Origin: an uncultured Selenomonas sp.
GTDB lineage: Bacteria > Bacillota > Negativicutes > Selenomonadales > Selenomonadaceae
Assembly: GCA_947167105.1 (NCBI GenBank)
Contig: CAMVGU010000008.1
Location: 1 to 64,000, forward strand
Length of the DNA: 64,000 nt
Reading direction: 5' to 3'
Part shown: piece by piece, positions 6,634-55,850 of the stretch
Numbering within the stretch: the first letter of the stretch is position 1
Layout of the letters: every line of letters begins with the position of its first letter
Translations under genes and position numbers: made by a program
Notes under the pieces: model-generated
What the model saw: the letters and a program-made list of their open reading frames with translations, nothing else
Told to the model about the DNA's origin: nothing
Databases searched by the model: none

Positions 6634-6900
6634 CGCGCCCAGGGATGGGCGCTGCCGCCCTCGTTCTCCAAGGAAGGGAACCAGTGTCCCGCCTCGTCCA
6701 TATCCGCAATAATTGCCCGATATGCGGCCATCTGCTGCGTCATCGTCAGTCGCCATAGCCCGCTATGGCTCCTTCCTCTTCCTTGCATCTGACCACATCT
6801 CGAACAATTATTTTTGCGTATCTGAACGAGGTGGGACACCGGGGCGGCGGTTTTCTTTGGTTACTTTCTTTGTCCACACAAAGAAAGTAACACCACGCAC
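6634..6900. repeat. TGGTTAC-family repeat, interrupted by element C
   Basis: The left arm CGCGCCCAGGGATGGGCG and the right arm TTTTCTTTGGTTACTTTC with its inverted partner AAAGAAAGTAAC are split by the 156-bp element C (6684-6839). An uninterrupted relative is at 63455-63600. The whole lies between hypB and the protease gene inside the operon. Confidence 0.8.
6684..6839 (+). mobile_element. Miniature element C, copy 1 (156 bp)
   Basis: Ends GTGTCCCGCCTCGT and ACGAGGTGGGACAC form an imperfect terminal inverted repeat. The same 156-bp sequence with about three changes lies at 55644-55799 in the opposite orientation. The centre carries CCATAGCCCGCTATGG, the hairpin module shared with elements A and B. 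No open frame is convincing. Confidence 0.85.
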
Positions 6901-6905
6901 TTGCC

Positions 6906-7553
6906 TTACCGCCTGGCCCGTTCCTCCAGCCACTCGCACCACGCATCCAATCCCGTCCCTTTGGTACAGGACAGCTCTATCACCTCAATCCCCGGATGCA
7001 AGGCAGTAATATCATCCCGGGCCCCCTGCATATCAAAATCGCAGTAGGGCAGAAGATCCACCTTATTCAGCAGCGCCACCGCTGCCTCCTTAAACATCAG
7101 GGGATACTTCAGGGGCTTATCCGCCCCCTCCGTAACGGAAAGCACCACGGCCTTTTCCTGCTCCCCCACGGCAAACTCCGCGGGGCAGACCAGATTGCCC
7201 ACATTCTCCACAATCAGAAGATCCAGGGCGGCAAGATCCAGGGAGGCCGCCGCCTTCTGCACCATAGCCGCATCCAGATGGCAGCCCCCTGCCGTATTGA
7301 TCTGGATCACCGGCACACCGTATTTATCAATGCGCTCCGCATCTTTGCTGGTGAAAAGGTCGCCTTCGATAACCGCCATGGAGAGCTTATCCTTCAAATG
7401 CTCCATGGTCTTTTCCAGCACCGAGGTCTTGCCCGCTCCCGGTGAGCCCATGAGATTCAGCACATAGACCCCCTTATCACGAAACATGGCCTGGTTCTCC
7501 GCCGCGATGCGGTCATTTTCCCCCAGGATGTTCTTCATAACTTGGATTTCCAT
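6906..7553 (-). CDS. hypB: Hydrogenase nickel-insertion GTPase HypB
   Basis: HypB is a GTPase that works with HypA to load nickel into the large subunit. The 215-residue protein has the P-loop GSPGAGKT (residues 36-43), AVIEGD, the metal-site GGCHLD, ENVGNLVCPA, SVTEGADKPLKYP, and the guanine-specificity motif NKVDLLPY. It lacks the N-terminal CxxCGC metal-binding tail of enteric HypB; a separate small gene at 8076-8318 carries that motif. ATG 7553 is chosen because GGAGGTGG lies upstream inside the hypA end. It is four bases downstream of hypA. Confidence 0.96.
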   Translation of the reverse strand: MEIQVMKNILGENDRIAAENQAMFRDKGVYVLNLMGSPGAGKTSVLEKTMEHLKDKLSMAVIEGDLFTSKDAERIDKYGVPVIQINTAGGCHLDAAMVQKAAASLDLAALDLLIVENVGNLVCPAEFAVGEQEKAVVLSVTEGADKPLKYPLMFKEAAVALLNKVDLLPYCDFDMQGARDDITALHPGIEVIELSCTKGTGLDAWCEWLEERARR

Positions 7554-7557
7554 ATAG

Positions 7558-7899
7558 CTATTCCACCTCCAGATACTCCACCTGCATCTCCCGCCCGGAA
7601 ATAATCTCCAGCACCCCGTCCTTGCACTCCGGGCACCAGAAATCGTAATGCTCCACATGGAACTCTTTGCCGCATTTCACGCAGCGCCCCAGGAGGGGCA
7701 GGCGCTTTATTTTAAGGACTGCCCCCTCTGCAGGGGTATCTTTCGCGATTATATCGAAACTGAAGCGCAGGGATTCCTCCACCACCCCGCTCATCTCCCC
7801 GATGATGAGACCGACTTCCGCGATACGGCCTCCGCCGTTTTTCGCTCCGTAGTCCAGGGCGATATCCAGGATGCCCTCCGCTATAGACATTTCGTGCAT
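7558..7899 (-). CDS. hypA: Hydrogenase nickel chaperone HypA
   Basis: HypA binds nickel through its N-terminal MHE and carries a structural zinc site. This 113-residue protein starts MHEMSIAEG (His2 is the nickel ligand) and has CxxC pairs at residues 73-76 and 89-92. An in-frame extension upstream is unlikely because it would hide the functional N-terminus. It immediately precedes hypB, its partner in nickel delivery. Confidence 0.96.
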   Translation of the reverse strand: MHEMSIAEGILDIALDYGAKNGGGRIAEVGLIIGEMSGVVEESLRFSFDIIAKDTPAEGAVLKIKRLPLLGRCVKCGKEFHVEHYDFWCPECKDGVLEIISGREMQVEYLEVE

Positions 7900-7922
7900 G
7901 ACTTTCTCCCAATCATTCGTTT

Positions 7923-7982
7923 GTCCCCCGTTCCAGGGATGCCACCGGCATCCCGCGCTTCGCGCCCCCAAGGGGGCGGACA
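7923..7982. repeat. G+C-rich palindromic repeat (GC family)
   Basis: CAGGGATGCCACCGGCATCC and CGCGCTTCGCG hairpins end in CCCCCAAGGGGGCGGAC, in the gap between hypA and the small metal-binding gene. A near-identical version lies at 28361-28419. Confidence 0.75.
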
Positions 7983-8075
7983 TGGAGTGCTGCACAGTTT
8001 GCTTTGTGCAAAAATAACAGGGAGCGCCCTCCGCCCACACAGGCCCCGGAAGGCGCTCCCTCGTCTTGTGTTTTC

Positions 8076-8318
8076 TTACAGTGCCGCTTCCAGATTCCTC
8101 TCCTCAAAGACTGCGAGGATATCCTTCAGTTTCGTCTTGCCCGGCGCATAATCCACGGTGGTTTCGCCGTCATGGGCGTGGATATGGACAAAGAGCACAC
8201 CCGGCAGCCCCAAAAGGGTCCTTTCGCACTCCTTGGCGCTCTCCTCCGTGTAGCCCGTCACCGTAAATTGCAGGCGGGTGTTGCCATTCGACTGGCCGCA
8301 GCCACATTCCATGCACAT
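8076..8318 (-). CDS. Small HMA-like protein with a HypB-type CxxCGC N-terminus
   Basis: The 80-residue product starts MCMECGCG, the same MCxxCGCG motif that binds nickel at the N-terminus of enteric HypB. It then continues with a ferredoxin-like beta-alpha-beta pattern (RLQFTVTGYTEESAKECERT, LPGVLFVHIHAHDGETTVDY) typical of heavy-metal-associated domains. It lies between the cytochrome b gene and hypA in the hydrogenase operon, while the HypB in this operon lacks the tail. The likely role is handling nickel for HypA/HypB; this is inference. The start ATG is preceded by GAGGG. I know of no named gene for it. Confidence 0.75.
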   Translation of the reverse strand: MCMECGCGQSNGNTRLQFTVTGYTEESAKECERTLLGLPGVLFVHIHAHDGETTVDYAPGKTKLKDILAVFEERNLEAAL

Positions 8319-8407
8319 AGTACATCCCTCTTTCCCTGTCAGATAAAAACTGCAACTCCTGTAATTTTAGCACCCTGTGCAATTTCCTGCGACCCCCCTG
8401 GGGGGAA

Positions 8408-9115
8408 TCAGATCAAATGCTTCTCGCCGCTCAGGTCGCTGTCCGTGGCATCCTTGGGGTTATGGATCAGGAACTTGTAGCCCGAGAACATGGCGCTGAC
8501 CTCGGACTCTCCTTCCATGAACTCCGCCCGAATGACCATGTAGAGGTGGCCAATGGCAAAGAGGATGATGCCCCAGGCAACGTAGTGATGGATGAGATGG
8601 GCCATCATTTCGCCGCCGCAGACCATAATGATCCAGGCAGAGATGCCGCCCCAGATGCTGTCGGGATTGGCCAGGAAGTACATGGCAAAGCCCGTGATGA
8701 ACTCCACCGCCACCAGCACATACAGCATAGCGTAGGATGCCCTGGCCAGGGGGTTTCTGAGGAAGGAGGAATGCTCATACTTCAGGAACATGTAGTGGAG
8801 AGCCACCTCGATGGTCTGGCGGTAAAAATAGCCTTTCCAGAAGTGGGGGAACAGCCGATCCCCCTTATTGATTACAAACCCGTAGACGCGCAGGATGAAG
8901 GAGGCGGCAAAGATAAAGGCCACCACAAAGTGGATATCCCGCACCAAATCCATATAGGTCACAGAGTAGGTGGGTTCCAGGTTGACCGACTGCAGGGGGG
9001 TGGCAATAATGACCCCGGTGCAGAAGAGGACGACGATGGAAACTACCATGATCCAATGGAAGACGCGCAGGAACGGGCTGAACACATAGAATTCCTTGCG
9101 TTTTACTTCTTTCAT
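8408..9115 (-). CDS. hyaC: Hydrogenase cytochrome b subunit
   Basis: This 235-residue membrane protein of the HyaC/HupC family anchors the uptake hydrogenase and passes electrons from the small subunit to quinone through two b hemes. It starts in the FSPFLRVFHWIMV segment and has about four membrane helices. Histidines suited to heme binding are seen in RVFHW, VRDIHFVVAF, LIHHYVAWG and AIGHLYMV. It lies 19 bases after the large-subunit gene, which fixes it as the third structural gene. Confidence 0.94.
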   Translation of the reverse strand: MKEVKRKEFYVFSPFLRVFHWIMVVSIVVLFCTGVIIATPLQSVNLEPTYSVTYMDLVRDIHFVVAFIFAASFILRVYGFVINKGDRLFPHFWKGYFYRQTIEVALHYMFLKYEHSSFLRNPLARASYAMLYVLVAVEFITGFAMYFLANPDSIWGGISAWIIMVCGGEMMAHLIHHYVAWGIILFAIGHLYMVIRAEFMEGESEVSAMFSGYKFLIHNPKDATDSDLSGEKHLI

Positions 9116-9134
9116 TGTGCAGCTCCTTTCCCCG

Positions 9135-11045
9135 TTACTCTTTATCCATGCGGGTCCCGGAATAAGGATCTGTGGTCATGACCCCCAGGCGCTCACCCTT
9201 GGCATTGAACATGTGGGTGGCGCAGGCCATGCAGGGATCGAAGGAACGGATGACCTTGGCAATCTCCAGGGGCTTGTCGGGGACGGCCACCTTGGTATCC
9301 ATCATGGCCAGCTCGTAAGCGCCCTGGCCTGCCTTGGAGTCGCGGGGGCAGGCATTCCAGGTGGTGGGCACCACGCACTGGTAATTGGCCGTCTTGCCGT
9401 TCTTGATGCAAATCCAGTGCTGCAGCGCTCCGCGAGGTGCTTCGTAGAGACCCACGCCCTTGCATTCCGCCGGCCAGCGCTCCGGATCCCACTTCGACAT
9501 ATTGGCCATGGTGGTATCGCCGCTCTTGAGGTTCGCCACCAGCTTGTCGAAGTAATACTTGTTGATCTCTGCGGCAAGCTGCCCATCCAGGGCACGGGCA
9601 GCCGTGCGGCCCACCATGGTGGGCAGCCAGACCTCGGGGGCCACTCCCAGCACCTGGGAGACTGCCTCCACCTGCTTGACCATCATATCCTCGGCCCAGG
9701 TGAGATCCCCCAAAATGCCCTTCTTGGCCTTAGTATAAACGATAATGTAGCGGGCCAGGGGGCCGACCTCGCAGACCTTGCCCTTCCACTTGGGGGTCTT
9801 CAGCCAGGAGTACTTGCCCTGCTCGTTCAGGGTCTTCCACTCCGTGCCGGTGCCCTCCTTGGGGCCGGTGAACTTCGGCTCGGTGACGCCATCCCAGGGG
9901 TGCAGATCCCCGTCCTTCGGATAGCTGTACCAGGAGTGCTCCACGCCCTCGGTGAGGGTGTCGGAGGAGGTGAGATCCTCTGCGGAGATCTCGCTGTAGA
10001 CGGCATTTGCCACACCGTCCTTGAAGTTCTCCACCACGCCGTTGCAGCGCACCAAAAGATCCTTGAAGAAGCCGCCGTCGGAGGTGGCGCTGTAGGTCTC
10101 CAGAGGATATGCACCCACGCCCAGCACCCTGGTACCGGCCAGGCCGCCGCCGTCCACCTTGCCGGCCTTCACATAGAGATGGCCGATGGCCAGAAGATCC
10201 GGCAGATAGTAATTATTGATCAGGGAACGGCCCATATTGATGGCCCTGTCAACCACGCCCAGGCGTGCCGCATTGACCGGGGCATTGCCGTCCGTCAGGG
10301 AAACGGAGCAGGGCATGCCGCCCACCACATAATGGGGATGGGGGTTCTTGCCGCCGAAGATGACATGGGGAGTCACCAGCTCACGCTGCTTGTCCAGCAT
10401 TTCCAGATAGTGAGCCACCGCCATCAGATGCACTTCCGGGGGCAGGATCTTGAAGTCCGGGTGATCCCACCACTGGGCGGAGAAAATGCCCAGCTTGCCG
10501 CTGTCCACAATGGCCTTCACCTTGGCCTGGATTTCAGCGAAATAAGAGGGCGTAGCCGCCGGATAATCATGCTCAAAGGCTTCCGTGGCGGAGGTTTCCG
10601 GCGCACGGAAAGGCAGCTTGTAGGTGGCAAGCACCGTATTCTGCAAATTGGCGGTGGCCACCGGGTCTGCCGCCAGGGCCTCCACCGGGCTCACCCAGTC
10701 CAGGGCGTGCAGATGGTAGAAATGCACGATGTGGTCCTGCACAGTCAGGGTCGCCGCCATGATATTGCGGACATAATTCGCATTCTTCGGGATGGAGATG
10801 CCCAGGGCATCCTCCACCGCACGCACGGAAGCTAAGGCATGAGCCGTGGTGCAGACGCCGCAGACGCGCTGGATATAGGCCCAGGCATCACGGGGATCAC
10901 GGTCTTTCATGATAATCTCCAGCCCGCGCCAGGCAGTGCCGGAGGAAATAGCGTCTGTCACCTTGCCGGATGCTTCATCCACCGAGACCTCGACGCGGAG
11001 ATGGCCTTCAATACGGGTAATGGGATCTACTACTACATGTTTCAT
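9135..11045 (-). CDS. hyaB: [NiFe] hydrogenase large subunit
   Basis: The 636-residue catalytic subunit oxidises hydrogen at the nickel-iron site. The proximal cysteines are in RVCGVCTTAH (Cys62, Cys65) and the distal pair in DPCMACATH (Cys605, Cys608). Cleavage after His611 would remove a 25-residue peptide, a job for the protease encoded at 5940-6542. The N-terminal PITRIEGHLR is the family signature. The length and C-terminal extension suit membrane-bound group 1 uptake enzymes. The start is 6 bases after the small-subunit stop. Confidence 0.97.
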   Translation of the reverse strand: MKHVVVDPITRIEGHLRVEVSVDEASGKVTDAISSGTAWRGLEIIMKDRDPRDAWAYIQRVCGVCTTAHALASVRAVEDALGISIPKNANYVRNIMAATLTVQDHIVHFYHLHALDWVSPVEALAADPVATANLQNTVLATYKLPFRAPETSATEAFEHDYPAATPSYFAEIQAKVKAIVDSGKLGIFSAQWWDHPDFKILPPEVHLMAVAHYLEMLDKQRELVTPHVIFGGKNPHPHYVVGGMPCSVSLTDGNAPVNAARLGVVDRAINMGRSLINNYYLPDLLAIGHLYVKAGKVDGGGLAGTRVLGVGAYPLETYSATSDGGFFKDLLVRCNGVVENFKDGVANAVYSEISAEDLTSSDTLTEGVEHSWYSYPKDGDLHPWDGVTEPKFTGPKEGTGTEWKTLNEQGKYSWLKTPKWKGKVCEVGPLARYIIVYTKAKKGILGDLTWAEDMMVKQVEAVSQVLGVAPEVWLPTMVGRTAARALDGQLAAEINKYYFDKLVANLKSGDTTMANMSKWDPERWPAECKGVGLYEAPRGALQHWICIKNGKTANYQCVVPTTWNACPRDSKAGQGAYELAMMDTKVAVPDKPLEIAKVIRSFDPCMACATHMFNAKGERLGVMTTDPYSGTRMDKE

Positions 11046-11051
11046 CTAGTC

Positions 11052-12152
11052 TCACCTGCTCTCCTTCTTGCCGGACTCAGCGGCCTCGATTGCCTCACGC
11101 TTGCCTTTCTGCACCACGGAAGCCGCCGCATGGGCCGCAACGCCCACCACTGCAGCCGCACCCACAGCCGTGCCGATCTTATCGGCATTGCCCAGCTTGC
11201 CGTACTTGGGCAGGCGTTCGCTGAAGGAACCCACCCCATCATCCCAGAAATTCGCATTGGCGCAGCCGATGCAGGCGGCACCGGACTGGATGGGATAGCT
11301 CAGGCCCTCGAACCAGCGGATATTGCCGCAGGAATTATAGGTCTCCGGGCCGCGGCAGCCCAGCTTGTAGAGGCACCAGCCCGCCTTCGCCCCTGCGTCG
11401 TCGTAAGAATCGGCGAACATGGCAGCATCGAAGAAGGGACGGCGATAGCAGGTATCATGGATGCGGTTGCCGTAGAACTGCTTGGGGCGGCCTTCCCCGT
11501 CAAGAGGCGGCAGGGAGCCAAAGAGTGCCACGTGCATCACAACGCCTGTCATGACCTCCGGTATGGGCGGGCAGCCCGGCACATTTACCACCGGGGTCGC
11601 GCCGCAGAAAGCGCCGATGCCGGAAGAACCGGTGGGGTTGGGCTTCGCGGCCTGGATGCCGCCGTAAGCAGCGCAGGTGCCGTAGGCGATAACCGCCATA
11701 GCCCCTGCCGCAGCCTCCTTCAGCAGAGAGGAAAAGGTATGCCCGCCGCTCATGCAGTACACACCGTTGTCCTTGGTGCAGGTGGCACCCTCCACCGCCA
11801 GGATATAATTGCCCTTGTTAGCCGCCATGGTAGCCTTCAGATGGGCCTCGAAGGGCTCACCGCAGGCAGCCGACAGCAGATGATCATACTCCAGGTCGAT
11901 CTGGGACAGCACCAAATCGCTGGCCAGGGGCGCTGCCGAGCGGATAAAGGATTCATCGCAGCCCGTGCATTCATGCCCGTGAATCCAAATGACCACCGGC
12001 AGAGGCTTGGCCTCCGCTGCCTCCACCACTTCCGCCAGGCGATCCACAGACACGCCCATCAGGGCACACAGGCCGGTGCAGCCCTTAATGAAGGTGCGGC
12101 GGCTGATGCCCTTCCTGAGGCATTTCTCCCATAAACTCTCCCGTTTTTCCAC
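11052..12152 (-). CDS. hyaA: [NiFe] hydrogenase small subunit with Tat signal
   Basis: The 366-residue subunit carries three iron-sulfur clusters that lead electrons away from the active site. It has a twin-arginine signal, SRRTFIKG (residues 17-24), so the folded heterodimer is exported. Cluster ligands are seen in HGHECTGCDESF, VEGATCTK, NVPGCPPIPE, CLYKLGCRGPETYNSC and AACIGCANANFWD. The C-terminus has a hydrophobic Ala-rich helix followed by charged residues, the membrane anchor of membrane-bound hydrogenases. It is the first gene of the operon and the start has GGAGG upstream. Confidence 0.97.
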   Translation of the reverse strand: MEKRESLWEKCLRKGISRRTFIKGCTGLCALMGVSVDRLAEVVEAAEAKPLPVVIWIHGHECTGCDESFIRSAAPLASDLVLSQIDLEYDHLLSAACGEPFEAHLKATMAANKGNYILAVEGATCTKDNGVYCMSGGHTFSSLLKEAAAGAMAVIAYGTCAAYGGIQAAKPNPTGSSGIGAFCGATPVVNVPGCPPIPEVMTGVVMHVALFGSLPPLDGEGRPKQFYGNRIHDTCYRRPFFDAAMFADSYDDAGAKAGWCLYKLGCRGPETYNSCGNIRWFEGLSYPIQSGAACIGCANANFWDDGVGSFSERLPKYGKLGNADKIGTAVGAAAVVGVAAHAAASVVQKGKREAIEAAESGKKESR

Positions 12153-12507
12153 TTTACTACCTCCTTAGCTGGTTCCCTCTGACCGCAAGCACCGCGGCTT
12201 GTTCCGGCAAATTGGGAATTTAATAACTATTATACACCAGTAAATCTAAAATAGCTATATCTAATGGAACGTAAAAAGCAATATAAATTTCATTTATAAT
12301 TACATAGCCACCCCTGGCAGGCATCCATAGGGGTTTATGCTTACTTTTCGCCATACACCCCGCTTTCTCCTGCTTTCTTAATTTTTTTATGGAAAATTCT
12401 TCAGCCTGACTAAAAATAAAAAAAGGATTTTGGCAGCAGCATCAAGAAGAAGTAAGTTGCATCTATGGGGTTGCAAGTTCCTGCACTGCAAGAGGAGGAA
12501 AGTCATT
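12153..12507. promoter_or_regulatory. Divergent control region between the hydrogenase operon and the sorbitol-PTS gene
   Basis: This gap of about 355 bases is A+T-rich in the middle. On the minus strand a TATAAT (12229-12234) sits about 75 bases before hyaA but has no good -35 hexamer, which suggests activator dependence. A small G+C hairpin lies near 12307-12335. No gene is seen. Confidence 0.4.
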
Positions 12508-12870
12508 ATGGAAATCAAGTACGACGTTACCATCACCAGCATCGGCAAGCTGGCGCGGACATTCCTGGAGAATAACAACAGCACCATCCTGCTGGATGAA
12601 GGCATCCGCCCGAACCTGGCCGACATGGTCATCGAGCACACGCCGGGAGAACTGGCCGAGGATATCAAGGTAGGGGATCAGCTGCTGATGGGCGGACTGA
12701 AATACTCCGTAGAAAAGGTGGGCGACGACGTAAATGCCAATATCCGGGAGGAAGGGCACTGCACCGTAATCTTCAACGGCGAAGGCTCCATGCCGGGCCA
12801 GATTATCGTCAAGGGCCCCTCCACGCCAATCCTCAGCAACGGCGCCCATATCACCTTCACCGGGAAGTGA
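12508..12870 (+). CDS. srlB: Glucitol/sorbitol-type PTS component IIA
   Basis: The 120-residue protein fits the PTS IIA(Gut) family: MEIKYDVTITSIG, a LLDEGIRPNLADMVIEH segment whose end carries the candidate phospho-His, and KVGDQLLMGGLKYSVEKVG. The start is ATG 12508, after GGAGG. In complete systems it sits with IIBC genes, but none are nearby, so it may be an orphan, may serve a system elsewhere, or may act in regulation. A strong terminator follows at once, so it is a single-gene transcript. Confidence 0.9.
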   Translation: MEIKYDVTITSIGKLARTFLENNNSTILLDEGIRPNLADMVIEHTPGELAEDIKVGDQLLMGGLKYSVEKVGDDVNANIREEGHCTVIFNGEGSMPGQIIVKGPSTPILSNGAHITFTGK

Positions 12871-12890
12871 GTACAGAAACAAGCCATAAA

Positions 12891-12927
12891 AAAGAGCAGG
12901 GATAACCGCAATGTTCCTGCTCTTTTT
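12891..12927 (+). terminator. Terminator of the IIA gene
   Basis: AAGAGCAGG pairing with CCTGCTCTTTTT, 20 bases after the stop. Confidence 0.85.
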
Positions 12928-12984
12928 GCTACATCCGCCGATTGCCTACATTATTCTGATAATTCTTGGTAATCTATGTGTTTT

Positions 12985-13122: not shown

Positions 13123-13165
13123 CTTAAACGTCTATCATTATTCTACTGCTATGGAGGCAGCTAAA

Positions 13166-13707: not shown

Positions 13708-13862
13708 GGAGCTGTGCATCAATAATCACTGCATCCTGCTTGTCTGAATCCGCCCTGGCTGCGTTCTCGTCGTTCGGCATAGCCCCACTATGCCTCACTC
13801 CTCCGCCTTGCCATGACGAATTCATCCTGCGCATAATGTAGCGATTATTTTCGCACAGCTCC
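13708..13862 (+). mobile_element. Miniature element B, copy 1 (155 bp)
   Basis: Inverted ends GGAGCTGTGC and GCACAGCTCC are flanked by TAA on both sides (13705-13707, 13863-13865), a 3-bp target duplication. It reads identical to copy 2 at 26215-26369. The centre is GGCATAGCCCCACTATGCC. Its edge completes the TAG stop of pepT. Confidence 0.9.
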
Positions 13863-24249: not shown

Positions 24250-24410
24250 GGGCGTGTTGATTAATTCACTCAGCCCATCTTCATGGGTCTTGACTGCCCC
24301 TGCTGCGTTGACAAATCCTCAGCATAGCCCCACTATGCCTGCGGTTTGTCGCCTTGCATGGACAGCCAATCCCCACAAATCTGGACTAAGCTCATTTAAT
24401 CAACACGCCC
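24250..24410 (+). mobile_element. Miniature element A, copy 2 (161 bp)
   Basis: Ends GGGCGTGTTGATTAA and complement, with TA at 24248-24249 and 24411-24412. The right TA and the first G of the element create the TAG stop of the HD-GYP gene. The core hairpin is GCATAGCCCCACTATGC at 24322-24338. Confidence 0.92.
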
Positions 24411-26214: not shown

Positions 26215-26369
26215 GGAGCTGTGCATCAATAATCACTGCATCCTGCTTGTCTGAATCCGCCCTGGCTGCGTTCTCGTCGTTCGGCATAGCCCCACTATGC
26301 CTCACTCCTCCGCCTTGCCATGACGAATTCATCCTGCGCATAATGTAGCGATTATTTTCGCACAGCTCC
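26215..26369 (+). mobile_element. Miniature element B, copy 2 (155 bp)
   Basis: Ends GGAGCTGTGC and GCACAGCTCC, with a TTA duplication on both sides (26212-26214, 26370-26372). Reads identical to copy 1, so movement was recent. Confidence 0.9.
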
Positions 26370-38754: not shown

Positions 38755-39056
38755 CAATTATAAGGCCATTGTTCCAGATTTGCCGTAGGCAAATCCTCCT
38801 CTCGGCCTTTCAACGAGGCGGGAGATATGCTCCCGCCTGTTTAGGGCGTGTTGATTAATTCACTCAGCCCATCTTCATGGGTCTTGACTGCCCCTGCTGC
38901 GTTGACAAATCCTCAGCATAGCACCACTATGCCTGCGGTTTGTCGCCTTGCATGGACAGCCAATCCCCACAAATCTGGACTAAGCTCATTTAATCAACAC
39001 GCCCTAGATGTACCACCCCCACTTGTAGAAGTGGGGGACATCCTTTGCCTCGTTAT
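38755..39056 (-). repeat. Hairpin repeat H, copy 2, split by element A
   Basis: Complement of 12985-13122 in two parts (38755-38841 and 39007-39056), with element A between them. Removing the element and one TA gives about 139 bases that match copy 1 closely. Confidence 0.88.
38844..39004 (+). mobile_element. Miniature element A, copy 3 (161 bp), nested in repeat H
   Basis: Same ends as the other copies, with TA on each side (38842-38843 and 39005-39006). The host repeat proves the insertion and shows that element A moved after repeat H. Confidence 0.92.
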
Positions 39057-39186: not shown

Positions 39187-40593
39187 TCAGAAGAAGAACT
39201 CGACACGGCCGAAGAGCTTCTTGTAGTCGATGTCGCCATCGATGGAATCGCCCTGGGAGTAACGGGCCGTGAGGACGATGTTTTTCAGTATGGTGTAGTT
39301 GGCACCGATATGCCAGCCCTGGAAGCCCGGCTCGAAATCATCGGTGGTAGCCAGGAGGGAGGTATTGTAGCCCAGTTTGCGGTAGCCGACCCAGGCACCC
39401 CAGGAGCCCTTGTTGGCAGCCTCAGCGCCCTTGTACTCATAGGCAATCTGCCAGGAATTCTTCTGGTTGTCAGCCTTGGCATTCTGGGCGTAGGAACCAT
39501 GGAGATAGGAATTCTTGTCGAAGTGGTAGCCCAGGTTCAGGCCCCAGATGTTAGCGCTGGTGGCATTGCCGTTGTTGCTGTACTTGACAGCCTTGCCGGC
39601 CAGGCTGTCCATCTCCCTGCCGTTAATCCAGTAACTCTCTGCGCCCCTGAAATTTTCCGAGCCCAGATGGTAGTAGGAAATGCCGCCTTCCAGCTTGTCG
39701 CCGTTGTACTGGACTTCAATACCCTGGATATTAGCAGCAGAATCCAGAGCCTTTTTGGTGTTATTCCAGGCAACATCGTACATGCCTTCCCTCGTGCCGA
39801 AGAAATAGCCGCCGTCATTGTCGCCATTGGTACGACCGGCGAAAATCTTGGCCTTGACCTTGCTGCCAAACTCCACCTCAGCACCGGAGTACTTGCTATC
39901 GAGGATCAGGTTGCCGGACTGGCCAGCCATATTGTCAGCCAGTTCCATCTTACCGAGGCGAACCGTGAAATTCTTGTAATCACCCTGGGCATAGATGTGC
40001 TTCAGCGTGACCTTGTAATCGCTGTCGCCCTTGCTACCGTCGGTTGTAACAGTCTCATAGCCGCTATCTGTGTTCATATGGTTGGTAGCATCGAGACGGG
40101 CATTCACATGCCAGTGATCATTGACCTCAGCGCTGGGCTCCAAACGGAAGAGCTCCTTGTCCGTATTTGCCTTATCCGTATAGTGATCCTTGCCCATGCG
40201 GGTGCTTTCATAGGTGTACTCGATCTTGCCGTTCCACTTCACCATATCGGCATTGCGCTCCAGGTTGGCAACACGAACACCCAGATTGTTCAGCTCATCA
40301 GCGAACTCAGCAGCCAGCTTGTCGATCATGGCCTTGGTGGCCTCGTTCACATCGCTCTTAGCCATGGCACGGGCAACCATCTGGGCCATCTCGTAACGGG
40401 TGATGCTGCGGTCGCCACGGAAGGTGGTGTCGCCGTAACCATCGATAACGCCGTCAGCAGCCAGCTGGGCAACAGCGTCATAAGCCCAATGGTCAGCAGG
40501 AACATCGGAGAAGGGATTGGCAGCAGCAAAAGTCGTGCTGGCTGCGCCCACAACCAGAGCGGTGGTCAGGGCGGATACGAGAGTCTTCTTCAC
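39187..40593 (-). CDS. SLH-domain outer-membrane porin (OmpM type), paralogue 1
   Basis: The 468-residue protein has a signal peptide to about residue 23, an SLH domain (FSDVPADHWAYDAVAQLAADG, then ITRYEMAQMVARAM) and a helical linker (IDKLAAEFADELNNLG). A beta-barrel follows, rich in alternating aromatic residues and ending in GRVEFFF. In Negativicutes such proteins span the outer membrane while SLH grips the cell wall, tying the two together and acting as general porins. The start codon is GTG, with AAGGAGGAG upstream. The N-terminal 130 residues are almost identical to the two paralogues; the barrel differs in loops. Confidence 0.95.
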   Translation of the reverse strand: MKKTLVSALTTALVVGAASTTFAAANPFSDVPADHWAYDAVAQLAADGVIDGYGDTTFRGDRSITRYEMAQMVARAMAKSDVNEATKAMIDKLAAEFADELNNLGVRVANLERNADMVKWNGKIEYTYESTRMGKDHYTDKANTDKELFRLEPSAEVNDHWHVNARLDATNHMNTDSGYETVTTDGSKGDSDYKVTLKHIYAQGDYKNFTVRLGKMELADNMAGQSGNLILDSKYSGAEVEFGSKVKAKIFAGRTNGDNDGGYFFGTREGMYDVAWNNTKKALDSAANIQGIEVQYNGDKLEGGISYYHLGSENFRGAESYWINGREMDSLAGKAVKYSNNGNATSANIWGLNLGYHFDKNSYLHGSYAQNAKADNQKNSWQIAYEYKGAEAANKGSWGAWVGYRKLGYNTSLLATTDDFEPGFQGWHIGANYTILKNIVLTARYSQGDSIDGDIDYKKLFGRVEFFF

Positions 40594-41398: not shown

Positions 41399-42793
41399 TC
41401 AGAAGAAGAACTCAACACGACCGAAGAGCTTCTTGTAGTCCAGATCGCCGTCGATCGCGGAACCCTGAGAATAACGAGCCGTCAGCACGATGTTCTTCAG
41501 CAGGGTGTAGTTAGCACCGATATGCCAGCCCTTGAAGCCTGCATCGAGATCATCGGTGGTAGCCATCAAAGAGGTGAAGTAGCCCAGGCTACGATAGCCG
41601 ATCCAAGCACCCCAGGAACCCTTATCAGCAGCCTTGGCACCCTTGTACTCATAAGTGAGCTGCCAGGAATTCTTCTGGTTGCTGGCCTTGGCATTCTGAG
41701 CAAATGCACCATGGAGGTAGGAGTTCTTGTCGAAGTGATAACCCAGGTTCAGACCCCAGATGTTAGCGTCCTTCTCGTTATTCCTGCCATTGTGGTAAGG
41801 AATGGCGTTAACGAAGCCCCTCCTGTAATGAGCACCATAGGCATTCAGATTCTGGAAAGCGCTGGAACCGAAGTGGTAGTAGGAAACGCCGCCTTCCAGC
41901 TTGTCGCCCTTGTACTGAACCTCGATACCCTGGAGGTTAGCAGCGGCATCGTTATCAGTATCCCACGTATTCGTGGTATTATTGTACTTCTGAATCCCGA
42001 GGAAGCTGCCGCCATCGTTGTCGCCGTTGGTACGACCAGCGAAGATCTTAGCCCTTACCTTGCTGCCGAACTCGACCTCAGCACCGGAGTACTTGTTATC
42101 GAGCACCAGGTTGCCGGACTTGCCGCCCATGTTGTCGGCCAGTTCCATCTTACCAAGGCGAACGGTGAAGTTCTTGTAATCGCCCTGAGCATAGATGTGC
42201 TTCAGCGTAACCTTGTAATCGCTGTCGCCCTTGCTGCCATTGGTCGTAACATCGCCGTAGCCGCTATCGGTGTTCATATGGTTGGAAGCATCGAGACGAG
42301 CATTCACATGCCAGTGATCATTGACCTCAGCGCTGGGCTCCAAACGGAAGAGCTCCTTGTCATGGTTGTCCTTGGTGGTGTAATGATCCTTGCCAATGCG
42401 GGTGCTGGTATAGGTGTACTCGATCTTGCCGTTCCACTTCACCATATCAGCATTGCGCTCCAGGTTGGCAACGCGAACGCCCAAGTTGTTCAGCTCATCA
42501 GCGAACTCAGCAGCCAGCTTGTCGATCATAGCCTTGGTGGCCTCGTTCACATCGCTCTTGGCCATGGCGCGGGCAACCATCTGAGCCATCTCGTAACGGG
42601 TGATGCTGCGGTCACCACGGAAAGTGGTGTCGCCGTAACCATCGATAACGCCGTCAGCAGCGAGCTGAGCAACAGCGTCATAAGCCCAATGGTCAGCAGG
42701 AACATCGGAGAACGGATTTGCAGCAGCAAAAGTCGTGCTGGCTGCACCGACAACCAGAGCGGTCGTCAGAGCGGATACGAGAGTCTTTTTCAT
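41399..42793 (-). CDS. SLH-domain outer-membrane porin (OmpM type), paralogue 2
   Basis: The 464-residue paralogue of the 39187 product has the same signal peptide, SLH domain, linker and barrel, with the identical C-terminus GRVEFFF. Differences cluster around residues 270-330, in what should be barrel loops (for example AFQNLNAYGAHYRRGFVN). The start is ATG rather than GTG. It has its own promoter and terminator, so each porin can be expressed alone. Codon choice differs visibly from copy 1 despite near-identical protein, so the duplication is not very recent. Confidence 0.95.
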   Translation of the reverse strand: MKKTLVSALTTALVVGAASTTFAAANPFSDVPADHWAYDAVAQLAADGVIDGYGDTTFRGDRSITRYEMAQMVARAMAKSDVNEATKAMIDKLAAEFADELNNLGVRVANLERNADMVKWNGKIEYTYTSTRIGKDHYTTKDNHDKELFRLEPSAEVNDHWHVNARLDASNHMNTDSGYGDVTTNGSKGDSDYKVTLKHIYAQGDYKNFTVRLGKMELADNMGGKSGNLVLDNKYSGAEVEFGSKVRAKIFAGRTNGDNDGGSFLGIQKYNNTTNTWDTDNDAAANLQGIEVQYKGDKLEGGVSYYHFGSSAFQNLNAYGAHYRRGFVNAIPYHNGRNNEKDANIWGLNLGYHFDKNSYLHGAFAQNAKASNQKNSWQLTYEYKGAKAADKGSWGAWIGYRSLGYFTSLMATTDDLDAGFKGWHIGANYTLLKNIVLTARYSQGSAIDGDLDYKKLFGRVEFFF

Positions 42794-48596: not shown

Positions 48597-48752
48597 GCGC
48601 CCAGAGAGTACCTTTCTTTGCCCACACAAAGAGAACAGAAACTCCGCGCCCAGGGATGGGCGCTGCGCCACTCGTTCTCCATGGATGGGAACAAGTGGCG
48701 CGGTTTTCTTTGGTTACTTTCTTTGTCCACACAAAGAAAGTAACACCACCGC
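48597..48752. repeat. TGGTTAC-family repeat (complete plus partial copy)
   Basis: A partial copy (TTCGCGCCCAGAGAGTACC, TTTGCCCACACAAAG) is followed by a full one with CGCGCCCAGGGATGGGCGCT and TTTTCTTTGGTTACTTTC plus its inverted partner. Confidence 0.75.
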
Positions 48753-48866: not shown

Positions 48867-48897
48867 TGTGTTTTGCGGCGGTTAGTTTCCTAGGTAC

Positions 48898-51492
<2,595 letters not shown>

Positions 51493-51570
51493 GGAAATCA
51501 CTCCTCCTAAAAAAACGTACTTCTTCACAATATTATCAGACGTATAGGGAGAAGTCAAACCGGGCGCAGC

Positions 51571-51605
51571 AAAAAAGCCCCCCTTCCGCCGGGGAAGGGG
51601 GGCCG
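51571..51605 (-). terminator. Terminator of hpf
   Basis: GGCCCCCCTTCCCC-ggc-GGAAGGGGGG followed by CTTTTTT on the minus strand. Confidence 0.85.
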
Positions 51606-51625
51606 CCTCTGCAAGACCCAAAAAA

Positions 51626-52171
51626 TCAGTTGCCGGATTCAATCAGGCCGTAGTCGCCGTCGTCCCGGCGGTAGACCACATTCACGTCCTCCGTCTGGGC
51701 GTCACGGTAGACAAAGAAATTATGGTTCAGGAGATTCATCTGCATGATGGCCTCCTGGACATCCATGGGTTTCACCACGAATTTCTTCTTCTTGACAACC
51801 GCGTATTCCTCCCCTGCATCCTGGCGGGCAGAGAGCTCGTCATCCTTGAAGGCTTCGGCTTTCAGCCCCCCCTCGCGGAAGCGGCGGGAAAGCTTGGTCT
51901 TCTGCTTGTGGATCTGGCGCTCCAGCTTCTCCACTACAAGGTCGATAGACGTATACATATCCATTGTGGCTTCCTCGCCGCGCAAGAGGACGCCGCCCTG
52001 CACCGGCACAGTCACCTCAACGATATGACGGCCCTTGGATACGGTTAAGAGCACCGTGATCTCTCCCACGTTCTCAAAGTACTTCGTGACCTTGCCGACC
52101 CTTTTTTCCACGTACTCACGCAAGGAAGGAGTGATCTCGATGTTCTTGCCTCTTACAGTGAATGTTGCCAT
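51626..52171 (-). CDS. hpf: Ribosome hibernation promoting factor, long form
   Basis: The 181-residue protein has the N-terminal domain ([32 protein letters not shown]) and a C-terminal dimerisation domain ([54 protein letters not shown]), separated by a charged linker. The long form by itself pairs ribosomes into inactive 100S dimers in stationary phase. ATG 52171 is preferred; a GTG six bases upstream is possible. Confidence 0.95.
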
Positions 52172-52239
52172 ACGCACATCCCCTTTCTATTCTCTATGCT
52201 GTATGTATTCGGCGGCACCGCCCAAATCCCTGCCTGAAA

Positions 52240-52276
52240 AAAAATAAAAATACCCGGCTCCCTGGGGGAACCGGGA
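52240..52276 (-). terminator. Terminator of the cold-shock gene
   Basis: CCCGGTTCCCCCAGGGAGCC then GGGTATTTTTATTTTTTT on the minus strand. Confidence 0.8.
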
Positions 52277-52296
52277 CGGTTATGCCAGATTATTGC

Positions 52297-52497
52297 TCAG
52301 GCCGTCTTTACCACGTTGGCAGCCTGCGGACCGCGAGCACCTTCCACGATCTCGAACTCCACATCCTGGCCCTCAACAAGGGTCTTGAAGCCTTCATCCT
52401 GGATAGCGGAGAAGTGTACGAACACATCGTCCCCATCCTCACGAGCGATGAAACCATAACCTTTTTCAGCGCTGAACCACTTTACTTTCCCTACCAT
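52297..52497 (-). CDS. cspA: Cold-shock protein
   Basis: The 66-residue protein has the RNA-binding motifs [10 protein letters not shown] (RNP1) and DVFVHFSAI (RNP2) and is full length. It unwinds and binds single-stranded RNA. It has its own promoter about 105 bases upstream, with a structured G+C-rich leader, as is common for cold-shock mRNAs. Confidence 0.95.
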
Positions 52498-52600
52498 GTA
52501 TGATTCCTCCTATGAAACCGGGAGCGCCCCGCGCTCCTGCCTGCAACCGCAGGCTGCAGGGCAACTTTCTCTGAGTGGCCTTCCGGCCCCACAAATCTGT

Positions 52601-52629
52601 ATTATAAATGAAAGCTATGGAACTGTCAA
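52601..52629 (-). promoter_or_regulatory. Consensus promoter of the cold-shock gene
   Basis: TTGACA (52624-52629), 17-base spacer, TATAAT (52601-52606). The -35 lies in a palindrome, TTGTCAATAGTTGACA. The leader of about 100 bases contains CAGCCTGCGGTTGCAGGC-type hairpins. Confidence 0.88.
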
Positions 52630-52703
52630 CTATTGACAATTTTTTTGTTTCAATCCACGTCGGTTGAAAAAGCTGGCAGGAGCGGCGGGAGCCGCCCCCG
52701 GAT

Positions 52704-53489
52704 TCACAGGCCGTTGTTCTCATGGAGCAGTTTGTACTTCTGCTTCTCGAAGAATTCATCCACCGAGCGCAGCAGTTCCTCCCGGCTCAGGGATTTCAGG
52801 AGATAGCCGTCAGGCTTTAAGGCCAGCACCTTCATCACGCTTTCCCTGTCCCCCTTGCTGGTGAGGAAGATGACGGGCAGCCTGCCCACCCTGGTTTCGC
52901 TCCTGATCATTTCCAGCACCTGGGGGCCGGAGGTCACGGGCATTTCATAATCCAGCAGGATAAGATCCGGCGTATTGTCCGCTATATACATCATGGCCTG
53001 GGCGCCGGAGGTGACTATTGTCACCCGGTATTTGGCCGCCAGCCAGCCCTTCATAATCTTCAGGAAAGCCCCGTCATCGTCCACCAGCAGGATGCTCTTG
53101 CGCCGGGAGTATTCGTCATTGGCGGTGATGAGCCTGTCCGCTTCCTCCACCAGAGCCTTCACGTTCAGGGGCCTGTCAAAGCGGGCAGAGACCAGGGCCT
53201 CGGGGATAATCTCCTCCACCGTGTCGATCTCCATCTGGTTGCCCACCAGCATCAGCAGCTTGTCATGCTCCGTGCAGAGATCCTTCAAGTAAATCCAGGT
53301 ATCCGTCAGCTCATCCACATAATCCCCCAGATAGCAGACGATCATATCAGCCATGCTCCTGTAGGCATCCAGTTCCTTGACCGTAGGCCCCGAGGAAATG
53401 ACCTCATAGCCTGCCTCCCGCAGGTTCTTCTCAATGGCTCCCACCATAAAGGCCGCTCCCCGGCTGACCAGCACGACTTTCTTCTCCAT
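52704..53489 (-). CDS. Tandem receiver-domain response regulator, no output domain
   Basis: The 261-residue protein has a degenerate N-terminal receiver-like half (VVLVSRGAAFMVGAIEKNLREAGYEV) without clear acidic residues. A complete receiver follows (SILLVDDDGAFLKIM, phospho-Asp in LILLDYEMPVTSGP, VIFLTSKGD, LLKSLS). No DNA-binding or enzymatic domain follows, so it probably acts by protein contact. No kinase is adjacent. Strong AGGAGG before the ATG. Confidence 0.88.
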   Translation of the reverse strand: MEKKVVLVSRGAAFMVGAIEKNLREAGYEVISSGPTVKELDAYRSMADMIVCYLGDYVDELTDTWIYLKDLCTEHDKLLMLVGNQMEIDTVEEIIPEALVSARFDRPLNVKALVEEADRLITANDEYSRRKSILLVDDDGAFLKIMKGWLAAKYRVTIVTSGAQAMMYIADNTPDLILLDYEMPVTSGPQVLEMIRSETRVGRLPVIFLTSKGDRESVMKVLALKPDGYLLKSLSREELLRSVDEFFEKQKYKLLHENNGL

Positions 53490-53757
53490 CGTATTCCTCC
53501 TGTTGCAGCTCCTTGCCCGCTCTGTTCACTATCCTAAACTTACGCACATTTACTGCCTCCTACTTCGACACAGGCAGGGCAAATTCCTTTTTTTAGGAAA
53601 TTCAAAGGGCCTGCCGCCCGAAGGTATGCGGCAAGCCCTGATAATCGACGAAATGAAATTCATTCTGTATACTATTCGTAAGCTACGAAACGGTAGGCGG
53701 TTAGTCCTCTCATAAATGCCGGCGCTCACAGCGCATGGTATATGGGAGGTGAGACGC

Positions 53758-53829
53758 ATGGACAACATGACGCTTCAGCTATTGCTGATCCTCTTGATAA
53801 TCCTTGCCGTCAATAATATGAAGAAATAA
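53758..53829 (+). CDS. Short hydrophobic peptide (23 aa), candidate type I toxin
   Basis: ATG 53758 follows GGGAGGTGAG. The peptide MDNMTLQLLLILLIILAVNN ending MKK is a single membrane helix with a basic end, as in TxpA/BsrG or Ldr-type toxins. Its stop runs into a terminator, AACCGCC/GGCGGTT (53827-53858), and from the other side a minus-strand promoter (53948-53977) would make an RNA of about 115 nt ending in the same hairpin. This locus has the best-formed of the three convergent promoters. Confidence 0.65.
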   Translation: MDNMTLQLLLILLIILAVNNMKK

Positions 53830-53942
53830 CCGCCCGCAGTCCCCAAACTCTGGCGGTTATTCCTATTAGGATTAACTTGTCAAGCGAGGACTAACCGTTT
53901 ACCAGTAGCCCGCCTCCTGTTAGCAGCAGGAGGCTTTTTCTG
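53826..53942 (-). ncRNA. Predicted antisense-direction RNA opposite the 53758 peptide
   Basis: Starts about 6 bases after the -10 at 53948-53953, contains a hairpin AGCCTCCTGCTGCTAACAGG (53920-53940), and runs to the 53827-53862 terminator, overlapping the 3' end of the peptide mRNA. Inferred from promoter and terminator only. Confidence 0.45.
53827..53862. terminator. Shared terminator of the 53758 peptide and its convergent RNA
   Basis: AACCGCCCGCAGTCC...TCTGGCGGTTATT, usable in both directions. Confidence 0.7.
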
Positions 53943-53947
53943 TTGCA

Positions 53948-53977
53948 ATTATAACACGATAGCATCAGGAAAGTCAA
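53948..53977 (-). promoter_or_regulatory. Minus-strand promoter facing the 53758 peptide gene
   Basis: TTGACT, 18-base spacer, TATAAT. Confidence 0.65.
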
Positions 53978-54105
53978 TATGTCAGCAAATTGCGTACATT
54001 GACTAGCCAGAGAGGCTGTAGTATCATGATTCATAAGGGTAAGCATGAAAAGAAATTTTCATAAAACCTGCAGCGTGAAGGACTTGCTTTTTGGGGGCGC
54101 TACCT

Positions 54106-55566
54106 ATGATAGATGAAAAAAAGCATCTTGGGGTGCTGGGAGGGGTATGGCTGCTGCTGTATCTCCTGGGCAATAATTTTTTGACCATAACCGACCCGGT
54201 GGAGTGCAATTATGCGGAAACGGCCAGGGAAATGCTGCTGTACAATGATTATTTCTCCCCCCGCATCCTGGGCAATTTCTGGTTTGATAAACCGATTTTT
54301 TTCTATTGGGAACTGGCGGCGGCCTTTAATCTGTTCGGCTTTACGAATTTCGCCGCCCGGCTGGCACCGGCCCTGACCGTGCTGGCCTCCATGGGCCTGC
54401 TTTACTGGTGGGGTAGGAGGCTCTACACCCCTCATATTGCCTTTGTGGCAACCCTCATCTTTGCCACTTCCCTGGAAACCTGGTATATAGGCCATGCGGT
54501 TATCACGGATATGACCCTGCTCTTTGCGGTGTCCCTGACTCTCATCGCCTTCTACTGCGGCTACAGCCAAAAAAAATACAACTGGTATTACCTGGCCTTT
54601 GCTTCTGCCGCTGTGGCGGTGCTGGATAAGGGGCCCATCGGCCTCTGCCTGCCGGGGCTGATTATCCTGCTGTTTTTGCTGTGGCAAAGGGATTTCCGTG
54701 CCCTGCTGGTCAGGCAGCTGATCGGGGGCTTCCTGCTGTTCTGCCTGGTGGCCAGCATCTGGTATGTGCCCATGTACTTAAAGCATGGCCAGGATTTTAT
54801 TGACGTGTTCCTGGGGGTGCATAATGTCCTGCGGGCCACTGTGTCCGAACACCCCAGGGATAATGTCTGGTATTTTTACATCGGCATGTTTCTGGCGGGC
54901 TTTTTCCCCTGGGTCTGGGTGGCGGTTCCCGCCTTTATCAAAAAATGGCGCCGGGGCTGGCGCCTGAAACTTGACACGGATACCCGCTTCCTGCTGGTGT
55001 GGGCCATCACGGTGTTTGCAGTATTCCAGTGCTTTGCCACGAAATATGTCACCTACACCTTCCCCTATATGTTCCCGGTGGTGCTTTTGATGGCCCGGTA
55101 TTTCTGCCACTGGGGCCGGAAGCTAATCTATACGGCGGCTGTAACGGCAGTTATCTATGTGGGGCTGGTCTTCGGAGTAGCCGCCCCCAAGATGGAGGAA
55201 CATTCCGCTTATGACATAGCCATGGCGGCTCAGCCCTACCTGGCCCAGGGAGCAGAGGTCTACTGCTTTGAGCGGCGGGGGGGCGTGATTTCCTTTGCCT
55301 ACTACACAGGCCATTATATCAAGGATCTTTCCTTCCGTGAGGAGGAGGATGAGGAGGAGCCGGAAGAAAAGCGCAAGCTGGACTGGAGCGTGACGAATAT
55401 CGTGCCCAAGGCTTATGGGGATTCCCTGGACAGGACCAAGCCCCTGCTGGTGATTGTGCGTTCCGAAGATAAAGCCGTGAAGGCCCTGCAGGAGAAGCTG
55501 CCGGGGAAATGGCAGCTTGTCAAGGCGGGAGAGAGGAATCATTTGTACTACCGGGAAGGGGATTGA
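54106..55566 (+). CDS. ArnT/PMT-family glycosyltransferase
   Basis: The 486-residue protein belongs to the GT-C superfamily that moves a sugar from undecaprenyl phosphate to lipid A or another envelope acceptor. It has about eleven helices and the family loop DPVECNYAETAREMLLYNDYFSPRILGNFWFDKPIFFYWELAAAFNLFG (key parts: NYAETAREM, KPIFFYW) with the catalytic acids. The C-terminal part contains an unusually acidic patch, EEEDEEEPEE. With the GT2 and deacetylase genes downstream it resembles the FlmK-FlmF2-NaxD route of Francisella for adding a deacetylated amino sugar to lipid A. That is inference. Confidence 0.88.
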   Translation: MIDEKKHLGVLGGVWLLLYLLGNNFLTITDPVECNYAETAREMLLYNDYFSPRILGNFWFDKPIFFYWELAAAFNLFGFTNFAARLAPALTVLASMGLLYWWGRRLYTPHIAFVATLIFATSLETWYIGHAVITDMTLLFAVSLTLIAFYCGYSQKKYNWYYLAFASAAVAVLDKGPIGLCLPGLIILLFLLWQRDFRALLVRQLIGGFLLFCLVASIWYVPMYLKHGQDFIDVFLGVHNVLRATVSEHPRDNVWYFYIGMFLAGFFPWVWVAVPAFIKKWRRGWRLKLDTDTRFLLVWAITVFAVFQCFATKYVTYTFPYMFPVVLLMARYFCHWGRKLIYTAAVTAVIYVGLVFGVAAPKMEEHSAYDIAMAAQPYLAQGAEVYCFERRGGVISFAYYTGHYIKDLSFREEEDEEEPEEKRKLDWSVTNIVPKAYGDSLDRTKPLLVIVRSEDKAVKALQEKLPGKWQLVKAGERNHLYYREGD

Positions 55567-55574
55567 GGCGCTAA

Positions 55575-55850
55575 CGGGCAAGGCTCGTGGTGTTACTTTC
55601 TTTGTGTTGACAAAGAAAGTAACCAAAGAAAACAGCCCCACTGGTGTCCCACCTCGTCCAGATACGCAAAAATAATTGTTCGAGATGTGGTCAGATGCAA
55701 GGAAGGGGAAGGAGCCATAGCGGGCTATGGCGACTGACGATGACGCAGCAGATGGCCGCATATCGGGCAATTATTGCGGATATGAACGAGGCGGGACACA
55801 GGTTCCCATCCCTGGGAACGAGTGGCGCGGCGCCCATCCCTGGGCGCTGG
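55575..55850. repeat. TGGTTAC-family repeat, interrupted by element C (reverse orientation)
   Basis: GTTACTTTCTTTGTGTTGAC and AAAGAAAGTAACCAAAG form the hairpin arm; CCCATCCCTGGGAACGAG and GGCGCCCATCCCTGGGCGC are the other arm. Element C (55644-55799) sits at the same internal position as in 6634-6900. Confidence 0.8.
55644..55799 (-). mobile_element. Miniature element C, copy 2 (156 bp)
   Basis: Complement of 6684-6839 with about three differences. Ends GTGTCCC and GGGACAC. Confidence 0.85.

Follow-up and report, generated by a model that had tools for sequence, protein, structure and literature searches.

The DNA analysed here (the window) is a stretch of 64,000 nucleotides from an uncultured Selenomonas sp. 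(assembly GCA_947167105.1, contig CAMVGU010000008.1, positions 1 to 64,000 of the forward strand), in which three families of miniature elements, A, B and C, carry a similar structured core between different ends. The original prediction had listed three copies of A (161 bp), two of B (155 bp) and two of C (156 bp), and all of these positions, lengths and ends were confirmed (Table 1). The 3.15-Mb host genome contains 23 full copies of A at 98-100% identity and two more at 91 and 88%, together with eight full copies of C and five of B. From end to end, the whole elements A, B, C and D (the last a further family described below) are long imperfect palindromes or hairpins (RNAfold z -6.2 to -7.2). 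A, B, D and E (likewise described below) show the traits of a miniature inverted-repeat transposable element (MITE), namely short length, terminal inverted repeats (TIRs), a target duplication and many copies; C has the TIRs and its eight copies and lacks the target duplication. At 155-188 bp, the elements are too short to hold the IS5-type DDE transposase gene that a member of that insertion sequence (IS) family would carry.

Table 1. Elements, cores and other features of the window
Feature	Position	Strand	Details
Element A, copy 1	2340..2500	-	161 bp; TIR GGGCGTGTTGATTAA; TA either side
Element A, copy 2	24250..24410	+	161 bp; TA either side; RNAfold z -7.08
Element A, copy 3	38844..39004	+	161 bp; TA either side
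Element B, copy 1	13708..13862	+	155 bp; TIR GGAGCTGTGC; target duplication TAA; RNAfold z -7.17
Element B, copy 2	26215..26369	+	155 bp; target duplication TTA
Element C, copy 1	6684..6839	+	156 bp; ends GTGTCCCGCCTCGT / GTGTCCCACCTCGT; within an intergenic compound repeat; no TA duplication; RNAfold z -6.39
Element C, copy 2	55644..55799	-	156 bp; equal place and orientation in another compound-repeat copy
Core of A copy 1 (class I)	2393..2450	-	covariance model 75.8 bits
Core of A copy 2	24300..24357	+	75.4 bits; apex hairpin CATAGCCCCACTATG at 24323-24337
Core of A copy 3	38894..38951	+	75.8 bits
Core of B copy 1 (class II)	13759..13811	+	60.7 bits; three tandem G.A modules on the complementary, purine-rich strand
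Core of B copy 2	26266..26318	+	60.7 bits
Core of C copy 1 (class II)	6735..6786	+	65.5 bits; four tandem G.A modules on the complementary strand
Core of C copy 2	55697..55748	-	62.6 bits
Compound repeat around C copy 1, left part	6623..6683	+	direct-repeat family D13
Compound repeat around C copy 1, right part	6840..6897	+	direct-repeat family D9
Group II intron domain RF02001	59713-59885	-	139 bits
Three paralogous proteins	39187-40593, 41399-42793, 58000-59454	-	SLH domain and porin match

In the host genome, the core pattern GCTGCGT-N10-18-CATAGC..CTATG occurred 37 times (24 of A type, 8 of C type and 5 of B type, near variants counted), whereas the same pattern read backwards, as a control, did not occur. 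A covariance model of the core, a check that the original prediction had proposed, put the seven window copies at the top, with scores of 60.7-75.8 bits and E values of 1.7e-12 or lower, the next-best match having 15.7 bits (E 0.057); this model was built from the same families, so the ranking is not independent, and support beyond it comes from the matches in other genomes and from a BLAST search free of any pattern. Alignments of the whole elements A-B, A-C and B-C outscored 200 of 200 dinucleotide shuffles, and core-only alignments were ahead of mononucleotide shuffles in 200/200 cases for A-B and B-C and in 198/200 for A-C.

At least four core-carrying families that had been overlooked (D, E, F and G) are also present in the host genome. 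Family D, exposed by a search for A-like ends, has the ends GGGCGTGTTGAWAAA and comprises ten elements, seven of 162 bp and three of 188 bp. Queries with B and C exposed the other three: E at four loci with the ends GGAACTGTAG (further E-type ends stand in the end listing, their middles unread), F at three loci with the ends GGAACTGTCC/GGAACTGGTA, and G at two loci with the ends GTGTAAG..CTCGTT. The core is present in all four families. The 188-bp elements of D (L066, L067 and L072) and the elements of G (L089 and L090) share a near-identical insert of 25-26 bases in the apex loop (CCCCAAGGGGACTAGC..GCGTCG) despite their different ends; this insert is a second shared module. In a first alignment of 13 cores, two of the seven stem pairs varied on both sides yet stayed paired (likewise in 11 cores). 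A chance match as the source of the core was rejected on the reversed-pattern control, the matches in other genomes, the shuffles and the model scores, and a coding remnant was provisionally set aside because of the compensatory stem changes. Two weak model matches at 3501-3550 and 1846-1895 (15-16 bits) lie in a pair of 92% identical repeats without such an element and were taken as chance.

The flanks bear traces of mobility. Counting distinct flanks only, with end patterns that overlooked two D and two C copies, we found TA on both sides of A in 25 of the 26 flanks listed (host and relatives) and of D in 7 of the 8 listed. Identical 3-bp target duplications accompany B in 5/5 cases (TAA or TTA), E in 2/2 and F in 2/4, and C in 0/6. 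One B copy is nested within an A copy, with TAA at both sides (L079). The eight C copies (L081-L088) occupy a single point, in a single orientation, within the compound intergenic repeat; the element is 96-100% identical within an orientation, versus 71-86% for the 100-base flanks, and either site-specific insertion or spread of the composite would fit this constancy. In the window the compound repeat spans 6623-6897 and 55569-55799 plus the right flank of the latter, and its copies at 48634, 61094 and 63480 are empty. Elements consisting of ends only, 31-33 bp long with two A- or D-type TIRs nearly abutting, were also seen (L075:1308-1340, L078:1203-1233 and L068:789-821; TA flanks in two of the three), and sister genomes hold similar close pairs of ends.

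Matches to the core extend well beyond the host. A covariance model built from 11 core sequences (R1) was scanned against genomes, at most 29 candidates per genome being scored in the family and 14 in the phylum. It matched 82 of 189 genomes and 18 of 30 genera in the host's family; across the phylum it matched 16 of 398 genomes and 13 of 267 genera, six of the 16 genomes lying within the host's family and ten outside it. For several of the distant matches, a palindromic element with different ends can be made out, for example CTAGTACCNTGTAACCCC, GTGTAGTGGCACGTT and GGGACTATCAAAAAATAA, and a few stand at contig ends. At least 119 stretches matched in a scan of named genomes with a class II pattern. 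Among the matches listed are Streptomyces, Kitasatospora, Nocardia, Gordonia, Rathayibacter and Nocardioides, and also Lachnospiraceae, Blautia, Oscillibacter, Ruminococcus and Peptococcaceae; the phylum placement of the named genera, Streptomyces and Neisseria excepted, follows general taxonomy. For the named cores (n = 120), a script found TIRs for 99, some of them doubtful (lengths 75 to 345), and none for 21; element length among the 99 was 155-174 bp in 53 and 185-200 bp in 17. When a 111-nt Lachnospiraceae element was compared with plasmid records by pattern-free BLAST, 20 records matched, all from Streptomyces (best E 3e-13), and all of these matches were confined to query positions 21-83, that is, the core. 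Queries with the A and C cores matched no plasmid record, so the plasmid collection gives A and C no link to other taxa. In viral contigs, a similar core pattern gave three stretches.

The modular design read from the window by the original prediction, a common structured centre with differing ends, holds on this wider scale. We grouped the ends of 79 elements (69 clean named elements out of the 120 named cores, selected by a stricter filter, nine elements from the host genome or its relatives and one Correia element of Neisseria) by single linkage at 78% over 12-14 bases, and obtained 23 end classes; A, B and C fall into three of them, leaving 20 others. Between class representatives (253 pairs), core identity was 75.5% versus 60.2% in shuffled sequence, a figure that is partly by construction since the search pattern had 22 set bases and all cores are anchored on CAAGG or CTAGG, compared with 51.3% versus 48.8% for the arms and 54.1% versus 57.5% for the ends. 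Ten elements that had not been chosen by pattern weigh more for that reason, and in 25 of their 45 pairs (for example A-B, A-H, B-C, C-F and F-G390) the core alignment was reached by none of 200 shuffles. Homology between family A and the H family, which belongs to other genera, runs through both core and arms (0/200 shuffles each), yet their outermost bases, about eight, match elements of two IS5 subtypes (IS5_3 and IS5_4). Judged from their sequences, A and H are the clearest single case of changed ends.

The conserved centre is a structured one. A gapless structure alignment of cores of 49 bases (62 distinct of 68; the 52 of 120 with other lengths were excluded) yielded a 7-bp apex stem, outward-spaced G-C pairs and a basal stem, amounting to 16 pairs, 93.9% paired. 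Its covariation score was 0.473 versus 0.174 after shuffling (0/500), and slid controls gave 0.037-0.120; the stem varies on both sides while the flanking sequence is near constant. Tandem G.A and A.G oppositions stand in exact register between the G-C pairs (GGAG versus CGAC three times, with GGCG versus CAAC as the fourth). Opposition 15.35 is A.G in 40/62 cores and C.A in 15/62, opposition 14.36 is G.A in 54/62 and A.G in 4/62, and core positions 0 and 51 hold C-G without exception (67/67) though they lie outside the search pattern. Read outward from the apex, C has four modules ('oo||oo|oo|oo|') and B three ('oo||oo|oo..o|'), and the spacer pair preceding the fourth module is A-T in C, T-A in E and G-C in F. 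In the ten elements not chosen by pattern, 54 of 130 oppositions were G.A or A.G, against a shuffled mean of 34.4 (0/1000); among the 79 elements, no apex was located in two. Class I cores (A, H and, less clearly, D) have mostly Watson-Crick pairs where class II has the G.A modules. Rfam gave no family at its gathering cut-off on the elements, in the window or in 17 loci, and a permissive Rfam scan of one element reached 20 bits at best against a cut-off of 70.

The oppositions also distinguish the two strands. On the purine-rich strand, G.T oppositions number 53 among the pairs listed (28 of them at pair 17.33) and A.C oppositions five, and on the other strand these numbers would be swapped; the excess of G.T is an argument for folding of the purine-rich strand, whether as RNA or as single-stranded DNA. 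The same excess slightly favours RNA as the folded form. Because the tandem G.A oppositions arise on just one of the strands, the fold that is under selection may be a single-stranded one. For the orientation of neighbouring genes we sampled 84 high-GC cores, of which 48 could be used (16 lay at an edge, 13 were too distant from any gene and 7 fell inside a predicted gene): tandem-gene neighbourhoods were divided 14 versus 12, with no orientation bias, and 15 were convergent and seven divergent. A role for the element itself is therefore likelier than a role in the neighbour's messenger. At many of the named high-GC loci from Streptomyces and its relatives (for example L217, L226 and L239), a predicted gene ends 56 bases past the core, which is the element end; CTAG at this end may supply the stop codon of such genes. 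At the Kitasatospora loci L340 and L341, a hairpin repeat of the GGGGGTACCTCCC type is inserted in the core apex and beside it, so the core is itself a target for other repeats.

Longer elements with matching ends were found for some of the families, with the NCBIfam whole-protein cut-off for IS5_3 at 110 bits. In the host genome, L155 (1.27 kb, ends GGAAACACTGATTAA / GGAAATACTGATTAA) has an open transposase frame matching IS5_4 at 318 bits, and its ends are those of the H MITEs in other genera. In Streptomyces, L346 (about 1.29 kb, ends CTAGGGCCTGTCTGACAAATGATCACC), which was read end to end, is annotated as IS5 family and matches IS5_3 with two parts at 157 and 135 bits. L140, from a sister genome, is 802 bp long with A-type ends and TA flanks, and the two pieces of its interrupted transposase match IS5_3 best, at 76.9 and 76.1 bits; L168, from a third genome, is 664 bp long with D-type ends and a truncated transposase (IS5_3, 93.6 bits). 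By model and by motif, the core is absent from all four (best 14 bits, E 0.13, in L346); a 23.7-bit model match at locus L140 adjoins the element, within a remnant of A. The original prediction had the common structure carried by different transposases, and this is supported in part: matching ends were found for the A and D types (IS5_3 fragments, each under the whole-protein cut-off) and the H type (IS5_4), and none for B and C. For B, E and F, the best candidate partner is an element with the end GGAACTGTCACGAAATTA, which closes the same stretch of about 98 bases at four contig ends of a sister genome (L349-L352) and whose body is unassembled; these 98 bases had one weak, uninformative plasmid match and no viral match. 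With the ends of the 69 clean elements, no end pairs at IS distance were found within loci L110 onward. An element end from Kitasatospora that resembles the ends of its MITEs recurs in 20 Streptomyces and Kitasatospora plasmid records, with an annotated IS5 family transposase in 4 of the 10 records listed; the corresponding IS body is not present in that Kitasatospora assembly.

Elsewhere in the window lie a group II intron domain and three proteins, paralogous to one another, in which an SLH domain and a porin match were recognised (Table 1); these proteins suggest a two-membraned member of the Bacillota as the host.

If the families were Type I MITEs, each would have arisen from a separate parent IS by loss of the interior, with core or arms as a piece common to those ISs. 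An 18-base stretch between the transposase gene and the element end of L155 (1411-1428) does resemble the A arm at 16 of 18 positions (0/200 shuffles, in one of 12 tests), and this likeness may be chance or a trace of origin. With that single weak match aside, none of the four longer elements shares an interior with the MITEs; A and L140, printed side by side, agree over their 15-base ends only, and simple internal deletion, including the deletion of one known IS that the original prediction had named as an alternative, is unsupported since all four lack the core. A Type I origin is quite improbable. ISAba12 is an IS5-family element. MITEAba12 of Moraxellaceae resembles the present elements in having only the TIRs in common with its presumed partner IS, the interior being distinct; as described in the passages cited, it has one end type and the TIRs are its most conserved part (PMC6382973), the reverse of the present elements, in which conservation lies in the centre and variation at the ends. 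A mutational origin would have template switching during replication keep arms and stem palindromic, so that the covariation would reflect quasi-palindrome correction instead of selection. Long imperfect palindromes, such as these elements are, are prone to that correction. Yet the same G.A and A.G mismatches, which correction should erase, recur in cores of two phyla, and the invariant C-G pair and the two-sided variation of a stem set in nearly fixed sequence also speak against it; we give this account little credence. The elements could also be thought of as REP-like single-stranded hairpins, moved by Y1 transposases (RAYT or IS200 type) and incidentally lodged inside larger repeats. The hairpin is indeed strand-specific and CGTC adjoins it, and the GTAG and CGTC families of REP/RAYT are described as hairpins with a one-sided tag that are spread over phyla, CGTC repeats being without a dedicated transposase (PMC3733652, in the part cited). 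REPs are, however, palindromes of 20-40 bp by the same account (PMC3733652), and the present elements, at 155-188 bp, are bounded by TIRs and have target duplications and ends of IS5-family type; with neither length nor TIRs agreeing, such an assignment is extremely unlikely.

A further alternative is that a known family has been renamed, the elements being Correia/NEMIS repeats of Neisseria in a wide sense and their spread alone being new. In each of two copies tested, the 107-bp gonococcal Correia element matched the A core at a level that none of 500 shuffles reached. Its weaker matches to most other families have the same strand sense, and for R1, built without it, it was the top match at either test locus (E 0.0004 and 0.0045). 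Correia/NEMIS elements are, in the passages cited, likewise small palindromic MITEs with TA at the ends and a characteristic core (PMC5039591, PMC2229807), and a central insert is present in some variants of either kind and absent from others (PMC2229807 for Correia). Their ends are nevertheless unrelated. All four Correia variants given in the passage cited begin TATAGTGGATTAA (PMC5039591), and the variants described share this one end, with no other end type mentioned on the core in those passages (PMC5039591, PMC2229807, PMC10969869), in contrast to the many ends on the present core; the 26-bp Correia inverted repeat beginning TATAGTGGATTAA is not matched by the ends of the present elements. 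In addition, when the Correia core was compared with the remaining eight elements, 4 to 55 of 200 shuffles did as well, and it lacks a clear series of G.A modules. A common origin of the two cores is probable, on evidence that we grade as modest, and a mere renaming seems rather unlikely. ERIC, RUP, Nezha, Chunjie and QMITE share the size class, hairpin fold and intergenic position (PMC2229807, PMC3733652, PMC10969869, in the parts cited) and are each one sequence family per name; we set them apart by description only. A search of the literature found no description of one core with many end types, with the proviso that searching by terms can miss such work. The parts are of known kind (MITE, IS5 partner and hairpin), and a design that joins one structured core to about two dozen kinds of ends, across two or more phyla, is undescribed in the literature found, which is not proof of absence.

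The best explanation overall, and in our judgement a probable one, is that the core descends from one ancestor and has been selected while arms and ends changed, being served by resident transposases and working as a folded single strand. The core module is likely an old selfish element that changes its ends to use different resident transposases. Several observations weigh against this explanation. The pattern used on the named genomes has 22 set bases, which makes identity over those bases a product of construction, and the largest end class takes in 46 of the 79 elements. Among the ten elements not chosen by pattern, 20 of the 45 core pairs fall short of 0/200 shuffles (for example C-H at 39 and H-G390 at 152), and arms are alike for A-E, A-H, B-E, B-F and F-G564 (0/200 shuffles) and for A-B (1/200); such likeness of arms between families means that gradual divergence of the ends fits no less well than true exchange. 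Nor is the fold uniform, given the mostly Watson-Crick pairs of class I and the G.A modules of class II, and the unbiased orientation speaks against a strand-specific role in the mRNA of a neighbour. The search for longer elements with matching ends found no transposase for B and C, the A-type partner is in a sister genome and broken, and the D-type partner is truncated. Finally, all four partners identified belong to the IS5 family, so that the "different transposases" are branches of one family.

In the mechanism that we propose, the ends would be read by a resident IS5-like transposase, as the matching ends and the duplications suggest, and the arms would turn the whole element into a long hairpin. 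The core would be conserved for a reason outside the transposase, since the longer elements manage without it. On the purine-rich strand, an apex stem of about 7 bp would be extended outward, in register, by G-C pairs alternating with tandem G.A/A.G oppositions, where the complementary strand would meet C.T oppositions instead. As a best guess, this fold would be recognised by some host factor that is itself widely conserved, to the benefit of the element's copying or survival and not of a neighbouring gene. More tentatively, we put forward the possibility of a selfish-DNA lineage defined by its middle: a strand-specific hairpin core with tandem G.A modules, kept across two or more phyla and probably also found in Neisseria, which has repeatedly taken the ends of resident ISs and parasitised many transposases, the core being a functional RNA or single-stranded DNA with an equally conserved host partner.

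Bacterial MITEs are usually grouped by their ends and viewed as leftovers of ISs. If the explanation offered here is true, a MITE can be a lineage in its own right: its core would persist while the ends are replaced, would retain the same non-canonical and strand-specific fold in different phyla, and would have no counterpart in the end-matched ISs. The purpose of a MITE centre would then be directly testable, and the search model could unite many unnamed repeats into one superfamily.

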